Assembly (NCBI GenBank): GCA_016124675.1
Contig: WGNG01000020.1
Location: 1-59,748, forward strand
Origin: Alphaproteobacteria bacterium
Lineage (GTDB): Bacteria > Pseudomonadota > Alphaproteobacteria > Caulobacterales > Maricaulaceae
Reading direction: 5' to 3'
Length of the DNA stretch: 59,748 bases
Positions within the stretch are counted from its first letter, which is position 1; each line of letters starts with the position of its first letter. Below the pieces are notes generated by a model that saw only the letters and a list, made by a program, of their open reading frames with translations, was not told the DNA's origin and did no database searches. The position numbers were made by a program, and so were the translations under genes. This document shows positions 23,700-59,748 of the stretch, piece by piece.

Positions 23700-25688
<1,989 letters not shown>

Positions 25689-25736
25689 AGCGCCCGCCTT
25701 CACCTCATCCAACCCTCTGACCGGAGCCCTATCTCA

Positions 25737-53760: not shown

Positions 53761-54444
53761 ATGCCCGACGTGATCATTCCCGGCCCTGCGGGCCGTCTTG
53801 AAGGCAAGTACAGCCCCGCCAAGGATACCGGCGCGCCGCTGGCCCTCGTGCTCCACGCCCACCCGCGCGGCGGCGGCCATATGGAGACCCCGGTCTCCCT
53901 CATGCTGTACGACCAGTTCAAGGCGCGCGGCTTTTCCGTGCTGCGCTTCAATTTCCGCGGCATTGGCCGCAGCCAGGGCAGCTATGACCAGGGTCTGGGT
54001 GAGCTGTCAGACGCCGCCACGGCGCTCGACTGGGCCCAGGCGCACAATCCCCTGGCCAGCTATTGCTGGGTGGCCGGCCATTCCTTCGGCGCCTGGATCG
54101 CCATGCAGCTTCTGATGCGCCGGCCGGAAATCGCCGGTTTCATCGCGGTGTCGCCGCCCACCAACATGTATGATTTCACCTTCCTGGCCCCCTGCCCGGC
54201 CTCGGGCCTCATCGCCCACGGCGAACACGACGCCATCGTGCCGCCCGACGACATGGTGCGCGCCATGTCCAAGGTGCGCAGCCAGAAGGGCATCACCATC
54301 TCCACCGACATCATCCCCGGCGCCGGCCACCTCTTCCGCGACCATCTCGACCCGCTGCAAGCCAGCGTCGCCGCCTATCTCGACAAACGCCTGCCCGAAG
54401 TGGCCCGCGAAAAGGCGGAACCGGGGCCTGTGGGGAAGAGGTAG
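53761..54444 (+). CDS. alpha/beta hydrolase (serine hydrolase)
   Basis: A 227-residue cytoplasmic alpha/beta hydrolase from ATG 53761: ALVLHAHPRGGGHMETPV, FSVLRFNFRGIGRSQGSYDQGLGELSDAATALDWAQ, nucleophile elbow WVAGHSFGAWIAMQLL, then GLIAHGEHDAIVPPDD with the acidic residue and PGAGHLFRDHLD with the catalytic His. The family (KANL3/Tex30-like or YpfH-like) has mostly undefined substrates. The frame open back to 53590 looks non-coding. Its 3' end lies about 40 bases from the tracrRNA terminal hairpin, so transcription of the two converges. Confidence 0.85.
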   Translation: MPDVIIPGPAGRLEGKYSPAKDTGAPLALVLHAHPRGGGHMETPVSLMLYDQFKARGFSVLRFNFRGIGRSQGSYDQGLGELSDAATALDWAQAHNPLASYCWVAGHSFGAWIAMQLLMRRPEIAGFIAVSPPTNMYDFTFLAPCPASGLIAHGEHDAIVPPDDMVRAMSKVRSQKGITISTDIIPGAGHLFRDHLDPLQASVAAYLDKRLPEVAREKAEPGPVGKR

Positions 54445-54486
54445 GGGGGTGCGCTAAATAGATTTGTGCCCTTGGTTTATAGCATT

Positions 54487-54600
54487 GCGGCGCCTTCGTG
54501 AAACGAAGGCACCGCAAAGAACCGGCGCTGTCTTTGGGATGCCGAGCCCACACGAAGAGACTTTTGCTTGCAAAAAGCAGCCCCTTCTCGTTCTGCTAGA
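54487..54600 (-). ncRNA. tracrRNA of the type II-C CRISPR system
   Basis: On the minus strand, 54600-54577 reads TCTAGCAGAACGAGAAGG and onward. It complements the CRISPR repeat over 24 positions with one mismatch and one G-U pair. Weaker pairing (54576-54566, TTTTTGCAAGC) extends towards the repeat's 5' end. Downstream follow the nexus-like region around GGGCTCGGCATCCC (54553-54540), closed by GTCT/AGAC, and a 12-bp terminal hairpin (54498-54487 with 54515-54504). The arrangement closely resembles, from memory, the published Parvibaculum lavamentivorans tracrRNA. There is no clear U-tract after the last hairpin, so the 3' end is uncertain and could run to about 54455. Confidence 0.85.
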
Positions 54601-54605
54601 TACTC

Positions 54606-54633
54606 ATGCTAGCAATATCCGGCGGGAGGTCAA
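54606..54633 (-). promoter_or_regulatory. tracrRNA promoter
   Basis: Minus-strand -35 TTGACC (54633-54628), 16-base spacer, and -10 TAGCAT (54611-54606) preceded by TGC, an extended -10. The predicted start near 54599 coincides with the first base of the anti-repeat. The -35 overlaps the cas9 ribosome-binding site on the other strand. Confidence 0.65.
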
Positions 54634-54635
54634 GT

Positions 54636-57600
54636 GTGGCATCAGAACTCATATTCGGTTTCGATATCGGCACCACATCCATCGGATCGGCCGTTGTCAG
54701 GATGGACAGCGCTGCCGGAACTGGCGAGGTTGTCCACCTGGGGGTTCGCATCTTCCCCGAAGCGCGCGATCCTAAAGGCATCCCACTGAACCAGGAGCGT
54801 CGGGTAAAGCGCATGATGCGCCGCCAGTTGCGCCGGCGACGCACAAGGCGGCGCGATCTCAACCAATTTCTGCGCGAGGCTGGCCTGCTGCCAGAATTCA
54901 GCAAGACTGAAGGGTCGGCATGGGCCCAGGTTATGGCCCTCGATCCATGGCCCTTGCGAGCAAAAGCAACCAGCGAGCCACTCAGTCCCGCCGAACTTGG
55001 CCGCGCGCTCTACCATCTTGCGCAGCGTCGCCACTTCCGCGGGCGCGATCTTGAAGACGCGGACATCAGCGACGAAAGGGCAAAGGACGAGCCGGAAGCC
55101 GACGAGAAGGCCGCCGCGTCCAAACGGGAAACCGATCGCAGGGCCTTGAAAGCGTCTGGCAAAACGCTCGGCGCTTTTATCGCCGCCATCCCAGAACGGG
55201 AGCAGCGCCGGCGCGGGCACCATTTTGCAAGGGACGACGTATCCGCCGAGTTCCGCGCCATCGTCGCGGCGCAAGCCCCTCACCATGCCCAACTGCGCGA
55301 CGCCGACTTCGTGACGGCGCTTGAACAGACGATCTTCGACCAAAAGCCGGTTTTCTGGCGCAGGGCGACGCTCGGCGACTGCCGTTTTGTGCCCGGGGCG
55401 GACCTGGCCGCCTCCGCCTTCCGGGGGGGCCCAGGAAAAGCGCATGCTGGAGAAGCTTAACAATCTGCGCATCGAGGAAGGCAATGGCCGCCCGCTGGAC
55501 GAGCATGAACGCGCCGCCCTGGTGTCCTTGCTCCGCAAACAGGACAGCGTGAGTTGGGTGGGCATCCGCCGGCATCTCAAGCTCTATTGGCGCACGCATG
55601 ATCTGCCCGAGAAGCCGACGTTCAATCTGGAGCGCGGCGGCGAAAAGGGGCTGGTCGGCAACCGGCTGGAAAACCGCCTCGCCAGCATCATGGGCGAGCG
55701 GTGGCACGCTGGGCCGGATTTGCGCGACCGGATGCGCCGGGAGATCCATGCGCGCCTCTACGCCGCCGATTATGGCCGGATCGGTGGCCGCATCGTCATC
55801 CGGCGCGAGACCGACCGGAGGCAGGCGCGCGCAGCAGAGCGGGAGCGACTCAAGGCAGACTTCGGCTTGACTGACGAACAAGCCGAAAAGCTGGCCAATT
55901 TGACCTTTGCGCCGGGATGGGAGCCGTTCTCGGAGGACTCTCTCTGGCAGTTTCTGCCCCGCCTGCAAGAGGGTGCGGTCTTTGGTGCGTTGCTTGCCAG
56001 CCCGGAGGAGGAAGGCTGGCGCGCCAGCACCTTCCCGAACCGGCTGCAGCCCACCGGCAGCTGGGTGGATCGCCTGCCCACACCCGGCAACAGCAAAGAG
56101 GAAATCGATCGCCAGAAATCGGTGCGCAACCCGACCGTGCTGCGTGTGCAGAACGAGCTGCGCAAGGTCGTGAACAATTTGATCAGCGTTTATGGCCGCC
56201 CCGACCGCATCCGGGTGGAAGTGGCGCGCGAGGTGGGCAAGTCGGCGCGCGAGCGGGCCGAGGAACTCAAGCGCAACCGGGAGCGCGAGAAGGAGCGCAA
56301 AAAGGCCGCCGAGGAACTCCAGAAGGGTGGCATTGCGCAGCCAACGCGCGACGACATCGAGAAATGGCTGCTGTGGCAGGAGTGCAATCGCCAATGCCCT
56401 TACACGGGGCGGATGATCGATTTCGCCGCTCTGTTCCATCGCGGGGAGTTTCAGGTCGAGCATATCTGGCCGCGCTGGCGGTCGCTGGACGACAGCTTTG
56501 TCAACAAGACACTCTGTCACCGGGACTTCAATCTAAAGAAGTCCAATAGCCTGCCGTTCGAGGCATTCGGGCACGACCGCGATGCCTGGGAGGCTGCGCT
56601 GAAACGGGTCCGTGAGTTCGCGGGGCCGAAGGGGCGTGTGGAAATCAAGGCCCGGCGCTTCGCGGCGATGGAAATTCCCGCCGACTTCGCCGCCCGCCAG
56701 CTCACCGACACGGGCTATGCCGCGCGCCAGGCAGTCGGCTTCCTCAAGATGCTGTTCCCCGATCTGGGCCAAGCCGGAGAGGTGCGCGTGGCCACCCTTT
56801 CGGGCCGCGTCACGTCGCGGCTGCGGCACAATTGGGGGCTGAACAACATCCTGTCGGACAGCGGCGAGAAGACCCGCGCCGACCACCGCCACCATGCCAT
56901 TGATGCGCTTGTGGTGGCGCTGGCCCATCCCGGCTATACCCAGCGCCTGTCGCGCTGGTTCCAGGCGCGTGATGCCGCGGCGCCGCAGCCCGAACCGCCG
57001 CTCGATCCGCCATTCGCCGACGTGCGGGCGCAGGCCGTGCGCAAGGCCGCCGACATTGTCGTTTCCCACCGCGTGCGCCGCAAGGTGTCCGGCCCGCTGC
57101 ACAAGGACACCACCTATGGCGACGCGGGCCCGGCTGATGGGAGCGGCGGGATCGCCTATCGCTGGTTCGTGACCCGCAAGCCGGTGGAGGCGCTGACCAA
57201 AGCGCTGTTGGCCGACGACGACGCTTGGCCCGACGCCCATGTGCGCGACCGCGTGCGGGCATGGGTCGAGGCGCATGGCGGCGATCCGAAGAAGGCCTTC
57301 GCGACCGGCTATCCGACCGTATCCGAAGGCGGCGCACCGATCCGCAAAGTGCGCATCCGCGTGAAGCAGCAGCAGAAGCTCATGGCGCCGTTGAAGAACG
57401 GTTATGCTGATCTCGGTAACAACCATCATGCCGTCATATACACCAAGCCGAACGGAAAGGCGGACTTCAGGGTGGTTTCCCTTTTTGAGGCATCAGCACG
57501 ACTAAGAAATAGCCTGCCACCAGTCGACAATTCCGATACCGGTGACCTGAAATTCAGGATGTCACTGGCTGCTGGAGATACTGTCCGTCTGGGAGGAGAT

Positions 57601-57786
57601 CGGGCTGGCCTGTGGATCGTGAGGAAACTGTCTGCCAACGGGCAGCTTACACTATGGCCAATCAACGATACCGATGCCGAGAAACACAAGACGATTTTTG
57701 AACCGACGATTGGCGGCATGGTGTCACGAGGGTTGGAAAAGGTCAGCGTCGATCCCATTGGCCGCATTCGCCCGGCGCGCGACTGA
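54636..57786 (+). pseudogene. cas9: type II-C Cas9, frameshifted at a G7 run
   Basis: The RNA-guided DNA endonuclease of the locus. The start is GTG 54636 with GGGAGG six bases upstream. RuvC-I shows FGFDIGTTSIGSAVV with Asp10, followed by the Arg-rich bridge helix (VKRMMRRQLRRRRTRRRDLN). At 55423-55429 a run of seven G shifts the frame, and the first frame stops at 55460 after 274 residues. With six G the sequence continues FRGAQEKRMLEKLNNL into the rest of a normal II-C Cas9 of 1049 residues: RuvC-II around RIRVEVAREVGKS, HNH with FQVEHIWPRWRSLDD (His codon 56461), RuvC-III HHAIDALVVAL (Asp codon 56902), and a C-terminal PAM-interacting region ending DPIGRIRPARD. It resembles Parvibaculum-type Cas9 throughout. 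It overlaps cas1 by one base. Confidence 0.92.
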
Positions 57787-58718
57787 TGCTTCGCAAGACG
57801 ATCGAGATCGCCACGCCCGGCACGCGCCTTTCGGTGGCGCATCGCCAGCTGGTGATCGAGCGGCCGGACCTGCCGAAGGCGACCGTGCCCATCGAGGATC
57901 TGGGTGTTTTGGTGATCGATAATGGCCGCGCCAGCTACACCCAGGCGGTATTCATCGAAAGCCTGGCCGCCGGCGCCACCGTCATCGTTTGCGGCCGCGA
58001 TCACTTGCCCGCCGGCATGATGCTGCCGATGGAGGGGCACCATGCCCTCACAGAGCGGCACTGGGCGCAGGTAGAGGCCGGCGCGCCTCTACGGAAGCGG
58101 CTGTGGCAGGCGATCGTGAAGGCCAAGCTGCGTCAGCAGGGCCGCCTGCTGGCCCAGGTGACGGGCCAGGATGCGGGCCTCAACGCCCTCGCCGGCCGCG
58201 TGCGCTCTGGCGATACCGATAATCTGGAGGCGCAAGGCGCTCAGCGTTACTGGCCGCGGCTGTTCGGCCGGGCGTTCCGGCGGGATCGCAGCGCAGACGA
58301 CGCCAACGCCTTGCTCAACTATGGCTACGCCATTGTGCGAGCCGCTTGCGCCCGCGCGCTGGTGGCGTCGGGCCTGATCCCCTCGCTTGGCGTTTGGCAC
58401 CGCAACCGCTCCAACCCCTTCTGTTTGGCAGACGATTTGCTTGAGCCATGGCGACCGATCGTGGATTGGAAGGTGTACAGCGTCATGCAGGATGCGACTG
58501 ACCCCAAAACGCTGGACGACCGGCCGACCCGCGCAGCGCTGCTCGCCATCTTCAATGAGACGGTGCTGGTAGGCGGCAAGCGCTGGCCATTGTTGCTGGG
58601 CATCGAACAATCGGCGGCCAGCCTCGCCAAGGCGCTGATGCAGAACGACCGGCACGCGCTGATCCTGCCCGAAAGCCTGCCGCTGCCGCCGGACTTGCTC
58701 GACGATGGCCAGGGCTGA
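57786..58718 (+). CDS. cas1: CRISPR-associated endonuclease Cas1 (type II)
   Basis: The 310-residue spacer-integration nuclease. The N-terminal beta domain (TIEIATPGTRLSVAHRQLVIERPDLPKATVPIEDLGVLVID) is followed by the helical catalytic domain with metal ligands Glu148 (DNLEAQGAQRYWPRLFG), His205 (LGVWHRNRSNPFCLADDLLEPWRPIVD) and Glu220. It starts within TGATG with the cas9 stop and overlaps cas2 by 14 bases, so cas9-cas1-cas2 are one translationally coupled operon. All active-site residues are present, so spacer acquisition machinery looks intact even though cas9 is broken as read. Confidence 0.95.
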   Translation: MLRKTIEIATPGTRLSVAHRQLVIERPDLPKATVPIEDLGVLVIDNGRASYTQAVFIESLAAGATVIVCGRDHLPAGMMLPMEGHHALTERHWAQVEAGAPLRKRLWQAIVKAKLRQQGRLLAQVTGQDAGLNALAGRVRSGDTDNLEAQGAQRYWPRLFGRAFRRDRSADDANALLNYGYAIVRAACARALVASGLIPSLGVWHRNRSNPFCLADDLLEPWRPIVDWKVYSVMQDATDPKTLDDRPTRAALLAIFNETVLVGGKRWPLLLGIEQSAASLAKALMQNDRHALILPESLPLPPDLLDDGQG

Positions 58719-59067
58719 CGCGCCCCCGGCCTATCCCATCCAGCCCTGGGGGTGGCGCAGCATGTGGGTAATCGCCATGTTCGACCTGCCGGTGGACACG
58801 AAGGCCGCCCGCCGCGCCTATGCCCGCTTCCGCAAGGACCTGCTGGAAGACGGATTCACCATGATGCAGTTCTCCATCTATATCCGCCACTGTGCATCCA
58901 TCGACAATGCCGAGATGCACGTCACCCGCATGGGCGCCAAGGTGCCCGAGAAGGGAGAGGTGCGATTCCTGACCATCACCGACAACCAGTTCGGCCGGAT
59001 CAAGGTGTTTGTCGGGAAAAAGCGGGCCACCATCCCTCCGGCGCCGGCCCAGCTCCAGCTTTTTTGA
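58705..59067 (+). CDS. cas2: CRISPR-associated protein Cas2 (type II)
   Basis: A 120-residue ferredoxin-like protein that bridges two Cas1 dimers. About 20 N-terminal residues precede the conserved MWVIAMFDLPVDTKAARRAYARFRKDLLEDGFTMMQFSIYIRH, with Asp27 at the usual acidic position, and RFLTITDNQFGRIKVFVGKK follows. It ends in APAQLQLF. It is the last cas gene: no csn2 or cas4 follows, which defines subtype II-C. A bidirectional hairpin separates it from the array. Confidence 0.94.
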   Translation: MARADAPPAYPIQPWGWRSMWVIAMFDLPVDTKAARRAYARFRKDLLEDGFTMMQFSIYIRHCASIDNAEMHVTRMGAKVPEKGEVRFLTITDNQFGRIKVFVGKKRATIPPAPAQLQLF

Positions 59068-59078
59068 AGCTCGCAAAC

Positions 59079-59116
59079 AAAAAGCCCTCGCGTTCCCAGA
59101 GGGTTACGCAAGGGCT
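59079..59116 (-). terminator. terminator of the CRISPR precursor transcript (minus strand)
   Basis: The hairpin AGCCCT/AGGGCT (59083-59088 with 59111-59116), with inner GCGT/ACGC pairing, is followed on the minus strand by TTTTTGTTT. It lies directly against the first repeat. On the plus strand it is followed by ATTTT of the repeat, so it may also stop cas2 transcription. Confidence 0.75.
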
Positions 59117-59748
59117 ATTTTAGCAGAACGAGAAAGGGCTGCAATCCGCAGCAGCAGGTCCGGCGACGGATCGATCTCGACGATTTTAGCAGAACGAGAA
59201 AGGGCTGCAATCCGCAGCTGCAGTCATGTTCGACTCCTTGATTGGTTGATTTTAGCAGAACGAGAAAGGGCTGCAATCCGCAGCGAGCCGGGCATGATTG
59301 AGTATCTGGAGCAGATTTTAGCAGAACGAGAAAGGGCTGCAATCCGCAGCCACGCATTGCGATAGCGCAGGCGCAGGTCAATTTTAGCAGAACGAGAAAG
59401 GGCTGCAATCCGCAGCAGCCGCAAGAGCGCATCTCGCTTCAAGCGTATTTTAGCAGAACGAGAAAGGGCTGCAATCCGCAGCCGCCCCGGTGGGTGCTTA
59501 TCGAGAACGTCGAATTTTAGCAGAACGAGAAAGGGCTGCAATCCGCAGCATCCCGTGCGCGACATCAATGAAGACACCGATTTTAGCAGAACGAGAAAGG
59601 GCTGCAATCCGCAGCGCCACACGCCCGGGCTATCCACGGCACGCCATTTTAGCAGAACGAGAAAGGGCTGCAATCCGCAGCGCAACGAGCCGTCTGATGT
59701 GAGCGCCGAGGATTTTAGCAGAACGAGAAAGGGCTGCAATCCGCAGCC
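59117..59748 (-). CRISPR. type II-C CRISPR array, at least 10 repeats, runs off the window
   Basis: Ten identical 36-bp repeats start at 59117, 59183, 59249, 59315, 59381, 59447, 59514, 59580, 59646 and 59712. The nine complete spacers are 30 bases except the sixth, which is 31. The plus strand of each repeat starts ATTTTAGCAGAACGAG and ends CAATCCGCAGC. The functional (minus) orientation is 5' GCTGCGGATTGCAGCC to TCTGCTAAAAT 3', supported by the anti-repeat on the minus strand and by the minus-strand terminator next to cas2. The leader end should therefore lie to the right, outside the window. Read on the minus strand, each repeat carries TTGCAG, 16 bases, then TAAAAT with an upstream TGC, a promoter-like arrangement as in Neisseria and Campylobacter II-C arrays. 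Confidence 0.98.

Follow-up and report, generated by a model that had tools for sequence, protein, structure and literature searches.

The window, a stretch of 59,748 nt that makes up the whole of contig C18, carries a type II-C CRISPR locus whose only cas9 may have been inactivated very recently by one short complex lesion, a reading to which we give a little less than an even chance. As printed, the cas9 frame is broken, a family motif is changed at the break, the remainder is intact and the genome yields one RuvC_III match. Either the break is very recent, with a real null allele as our tentatively preferred explanation, or it is a local error of the consensus, which we hold to be a substantial but lesser possibility.

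Cas9 is encoded by two open reading frames, which the initial annotation had taken for the halves of one protein.

54636..55460, plus strand, N-terminal piece of cas9, GTG to TAA, 274 aa, frame 1 (TIGR01865 positions 2-279, E = 1.9e-46)
55432..57786, plus strand, C-terminal piece of cas9, in the family frame from QEKRM to the stop codon (TIGR01865 positions 284-1069, E = 3.9e-115)

Since the two pieces match adjoining ranges of the TIGR01865 Cas9 model (1070 positions in total), they are indeed consecutive parts of one Cas9. Frame 2, which holds the C-terminal piece, is open from 55321 to 57786, and the last 12 or so residues of the N-terminal piece are out of the family frame. HNH_4 and RuvC_III (Pfam) are carried by the C-terminal piece, and RuvC-I is presumably in the N-terminal piece. 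The uninterrupted cas9 frame of a functional type II-C locus is not found in the printed sequence, where the frame changes within 55419-55431. The single RuvC_III match in the genome is this cas9 itself, so no spare Cas9 was found.

The break was compared with eight distinct relatives from one contig scan (57-79% identity to the C-terminal piece), in all of which a single open frame of 1030-1057 aa encodes Cas9. The window cas9 starts with GTG at 54636 and theirs with ATG (8/8), a slight difference that may be of no consequence. Distant homologues from a 61-genome search also had open frames without internal stops (9/9), and a split shared with any homologue, as a natural two-piece gene would have, was found in none of the eight near and nine distant ones. 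Closer copies of cas9 were confined to the organism's own genome among 137 family genomes at E 1e-100, to the own genome and G195, at a strict cut-off, among 385 genomes drawn from the class, and, at the strict cut-off, to G195 alone among nine genomes of its order. At a loose cut-off, a Cas9 with 32-35% identity was found in two of the 14 other genomes of the genus. Neither the 61-genome search nor the 137 family genomes yielded a second genome of the species, no cas9 relative was found in viral contigs, and identity was below 60% in all 56 plasmid records. Among the open-access titles listed, none deals with a cas9 frameshifted or split in nature.

The break itself comprises a short lesion and the homopolymer within it.

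55419..55431, plus strand, lesion, 13 nt against the 12 nt coding S-W-[VLI]-[AS] in eight relatives
55423..55429, plus strand, run of seven G, absent from all eight relatives

The run of seven G was correctly reported by the initial annotation, which had read the break as a single additional G, with nothing else gained or lost compared with the family; this second claim did not hold. Between the conserved ASA and QEKRM every relative has 12 nt coding S-W-[VLI]-[AS] (8/8), and the window, at about residue 262, has 13 nt, a net gain of 1 nt, and differs there in at least three places. The smallest edit distance from the lesion to any of the 780 codings of the motif is 3, reached by one coding; the actual relatives are 4 to 7 edits from the lesion and 1 to 5 from one another. 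The W that is invariant in all eight is lost, its codon and that for V/L/I having both changed, and the 13 nt do not yield the family residues in any frame. The lesion is therefore not one extra G in a family-like stretch, and the run arose with other changes. Runs of at least seven G or C number 10 in 331,748 sampled bases of the genome, about one per 33 kb, which gives a chance of about 9% for at least one in 3.15 kb; the G7 run as such is thus unremarkable. The longest G/C run in that sample is one of nine G at L036:18946-18954. As read from the sequence, the notable features are the broken frame and the lost invariant motif, rather than the run.

These counts bear on two ways in which the run might still govern Cas9. 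One is a phase-variable cas9, proposed earlier as a reversible contingency switch, in which slippage of the G run toggles Cas9; in its favour, a G7 run is located at the frame break and the system otherwise looks intact. A contingency tract would, however, be kept in related genes, and this run is in none of the eight. No run length gives the family motif, and runs of this size are common here. With the run absent from every relative, the W and V/L/I codons changed and no frame that fits, the main ground for a switch is removed; we rejected it as the main reading and consider it very improbable. The other is programmed ribosomal or transcriptional slippage that would give some full-length Cas9. 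It agrees with a homopolymer preceding the frame change, but the eight relatives have no such run and the slipped product would still be without the conserved motif, so that we allow it only a slight chance. DNA folding was also examined for hairpin-templated mutation; the z value at the lesion is -1.00 in the window and -1.44, -2.30 and -0.32 in three intact relatives, and no template explaining the 13 nt was seen.

Outside the lesion, the gene was compared column by column with the same relatives. Where all eight agree, the window differs from them at 3/102 columns in the N block, 4/320 in the C block, 2/153 in Cas1 and 0/69 in Cas2. The three N-block deviations are the start residue and the S and W of the lesion, the last two being counted through the placing of the block boundary. 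When each relative was left out in turn, its own count of deviations in the N block was larger than that of the window in three cases, equal in two and smaller in three; in the C block it was larger in seven of the eight and smaller in one. When the criterion was relaxed to group-conserved columns, the window fell outside the group at 6/141 in the N block (four of them the lesion), 4/404 in the C block, 4/208 in Cas1 and 0/92 in Cas2. Relative-rate comparisons of changes found only in the window with those found only in L012, the nearest relative, gave 17:13, 12:11, 10:13 and 11:12 for the N block. For the C block they conflicted, with 86:32 (L018) and 71:37 (L013) on one side and 32:60 (L015) and 34:56 (L016) on the other. 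Faster change of the window's C block, as in the first two, was rejected because the signal came from one part of it, which we take to be the PAM-interacting domain.

57430..57740, plus strand, C-terminal PAM-interacting part of Cas9, of a type different from that of L012

Outside this part the counts with six outgroups were even (30:30, 31:31, 23:24, 25:21, 24:27, 22:37). Within it, amino acid identity is 36% to L012, 68% to L015 and 64% to L016, and in the rest of the C block it is 88% to L012 and 74% to L015. Nucleotide similarity to L012 resumes after the PAM-interacting part, which suggests that this part was obtained by modular domain exchange. Judged by these comparisons, the window cas9 has evolved like its intact nearest relative. 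With no decay besides the lesion, the break would be very recent, or not real; both alternatives had been raised in the initial annotation, and both are supported by the state of the rest of cas9 and of the locus.

If the break is not real, cas9 is uninterrupted in the organism and the consensus is wrong over a stretch rich in G, an explanation that we regard as quite plausible, at clearly under an even chance. It would account for changes clustered in 13 nt while the rest of cas9 evolves as if intact, and, against the nearest relatives, two T are read as G in a G-rich context. One account gives T called as G after GG as the commonest systematic Illumina error (PMC3295828), Illumina not necessarily being the platform of this assembly; another describes GGC-type motifs as lowering coverage and quality (PMC4872057). 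The assembly is also a draft, with a contig break within the CRISPR array. Set against an error, the documented T-to-G type covers part of the lesion and not the change in length, the lesion lies 4.3 kb from the contig end, and no other frameshift held up when the rest of the window was screened against two genomes, G012 (34 genes) and G011 (40 genes). The one case flagged, 25214-25691 against G011, was rejected as an antisense ORF next to a P-II gene that is itself intact; frameshifts are thus not a general feature of the contig. In six further entries, four of them against G012 and two against G011, coverage was partial and there was no second piece. The null allele faces an objection of its own, in that at least three changes in 13 nt with none elsewhere are unusual for one ordinary mutation, and a local misread fits them too.

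The normal constraint on the two pieces could also be explained by a Cas9 that works in two parts, both being translated and assembling on the tracrRNA-crRNA. The C-terminal piece would then be started by termination-reinitiation at an internal site.

55433..55446, plus strand, possible internal start of the C-terminal piece, with AGGA at 55433-55436 and an in-frame ATG at 55444-55446

The AGGA stands 7 nt before this ATG, which is itself 14 nt before the frame-1 stop codon, and the normal constraint on both pieces would be there because the two-subunit Cas9 still cuts. However, the intact relatives have the same ATG (8/8) and AGGA (7/8) through the coding of QEKRM, so nothing shows selection for an internal start. 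Translational coupling is reported to be best at a spacing of -4 to +3 nt and to fall with longer overlap (PMC12548453). The invariant W is lost in such a Cas9 as well, and no homologue examined is split; we consider this explanation highly unlikely. A two-piece Cas9, if shown, would lift the locus above an ordinary broken or misread cas9.

The rest of the locus lies on both sides of cas9.

54485..54598, minus strand, predicted tracrRNA with anti-repeat (54577-54598), conserved core and 3' hairpin (54485-54517)
54606..54633, minus strand, promoter-like site for the tracrRNA (TTGACC, 16 nt, TAGCAT), adjoining the anti-repeat upstream
57786..58718, plus strand, type II cas1 (TIGR03639, E = 1e-74)
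58705..59067, plus strand, cas2 (TIGR01573, E = 6.5e-16)
59117..59748, no strand given, CRISPR array of ten identical 36-nt repeats and nine spacers, cut by the contig end

This complement, a Cas9 with HNH and RuvC parts, cas1, cas2, an array and a tracrRNA with a matching anti-repeat, places the locus in type II-C; no fourth cas gene (csn2 or cas4) was found between cas9 and the array. The cas1 and cas2 genes overlap, and the array begins 49 nt after cas2. The 22-nt anti-repeat is 95% complementary to each of the ten repeats, the tracrRNA stretch folds with a z value of -2.34, and its core is strongly conserved in an alignment with eight relatives. One promoter-like site was found, against a mean of 0.1 in shuffles, and its TTGACC is kept in seven of the eight relatives. 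The earlier view that tracrRNA, cas1, cas2 and the ten perfect repeats look functional is thus sustained to the extent that they appear intact, by the TIGR matches and the 95% anti-repeat. Within 54606-54646 the promoter-like site of the tracrRNA overlaps, on the other strand, the ribosome-binding site of cas9. The crRNA-sense repeat of the array (59117-59748) ends in TGCTAAAAT, which resembles a promoter of the extended -10 type; Neisseria II-C arrays are known to have promoters within their repeats.

The array continues on a second contig, C3, whose start holds a further four identical repeats with three spacers, making 14 identical repeats over the two contigs. The hydrolase gene to the left of cas9 and the sequence to the right of the array on C3 are neighbours in all five regions fetched from the same genus (G005, G007, G008, G011 and G012, of 14 other genomes), with a gap of about 0.14 to 6.4 kb between them. 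The array therefore links the two contigs, and the site of the CRISPR locus is a variable one. This site, between the hydrolase gene and an anmK-like ORF (54444-59748 and the start of C3, L030), varies in the genus: G005 has an N6-methylase/HsdR_N protein there (L074:3279-6077), and G011 has two flagellin-like/laminin-G ORFs (L072), their likeness to flagellin being judged by eye. The site may be one for accessory or defence functions.

Self-targeting was considered as a driver of cas9 loss. When all 12 known spacers, nine on C18 and three on C3, were compared with the own genome, none had a match above chance; the unassembled part of the array lies outside this set. The best matches outside the arrays and the anti-repeat had E values of 0.27 (spacer 59153-59182, 24/30 ungapped) and 0.65. 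The nine spacers of C18 gave three phage records (best E 0.2) and two plasmid records (best E 0.7). A match of E 3.8e-5, the best outside the own genome among 137 same-family genomes, was rejected as a spacer target, with 18 of 30 letters. In a scan of viral contigs with 20-21 nt pieces of three of the 12 spacers, one of the three matched. This spacer, 59285-59314, has 27 of 30 letters in viral contig L083 and 25 of 30 in two others, two of the three contigs being the same there. The match sits in a reading frame (EPGMIEYL) that is kept in all three contigs and that we take to resemble a phage portal protein. Together with the differing PAM-interacting part of Cas9, it suggests past activity of the locus.

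Under the preferred reading of a recent null allele, one short complex lesion at about residue 262 would have split the only cas9 into an N-terminal piece with RuvC-I and a separate C-terminal piece with HNH and RuvC-III. Guide RNAs and Cas1-Cas2 could still be made, and Cas9 only in two pieces. As neither piece holds the whole RuvC site, we infer that interference would be lost, provided that the printed sequence is correct, as we also infer. A real allele would capture CRISPR immunity shortly after its loss, while the guides and the adaptation genes are still intact, and would make a convenient setting for studying what functions such a locus retains and whether Cas9 can last in two pieces. 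An error would instead illustrate that, in a draft genome, an isolated frameshift next to a homopolymer should be checked against the reads before it is interpreted biologically.

The locus can be set beside several known systems. Neisseria and Campylobacter have phase-variable genes with G tracts, and the G run at the frame break is a likeness to these, but here the run is short and without conservation in relatives, and the flanking motif is also changed. Laboratory split Cas9s work and consist of two polypeptides, as sequenced here, whereas the present split is unselected and its two pieces are known from sequence alone. Among solved Cas9 structures, 8hnt, 6jdq and 6kc8 align with the HNH-RuvC region of the C-terminal piece (E = 2.8e-48 to 1.6e-46), and residues 11-268 of 6jdq align with residues 5-259 of the N-terminal piece. 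All three are single chains, whereas here the frame breaks at the equivalent of about residue 268; we take 6jdq and 6kc8 to be Neisseria Cas9, in which the break point would presumably fall in the recognition lobe. The closest counterpart is the intact type II-C locus of L012 (WGLN01000004.1, a Porphyrobacter sp. MAG), which has the same cas9-cas1-cas2 order and a tracrRNA likewise upstream of cas9 on the opposite strand. Its repeat differs at 2 of 36 positions, and identity to it is 82% and 79% for the two halves of Cas9, 88% for Cas1 and 92% for Cas2. In L012, however, cas9 is a single open frame of 1046 aa with 12 nt at the site of the lesion, and its PAM-interacting part is of another type.
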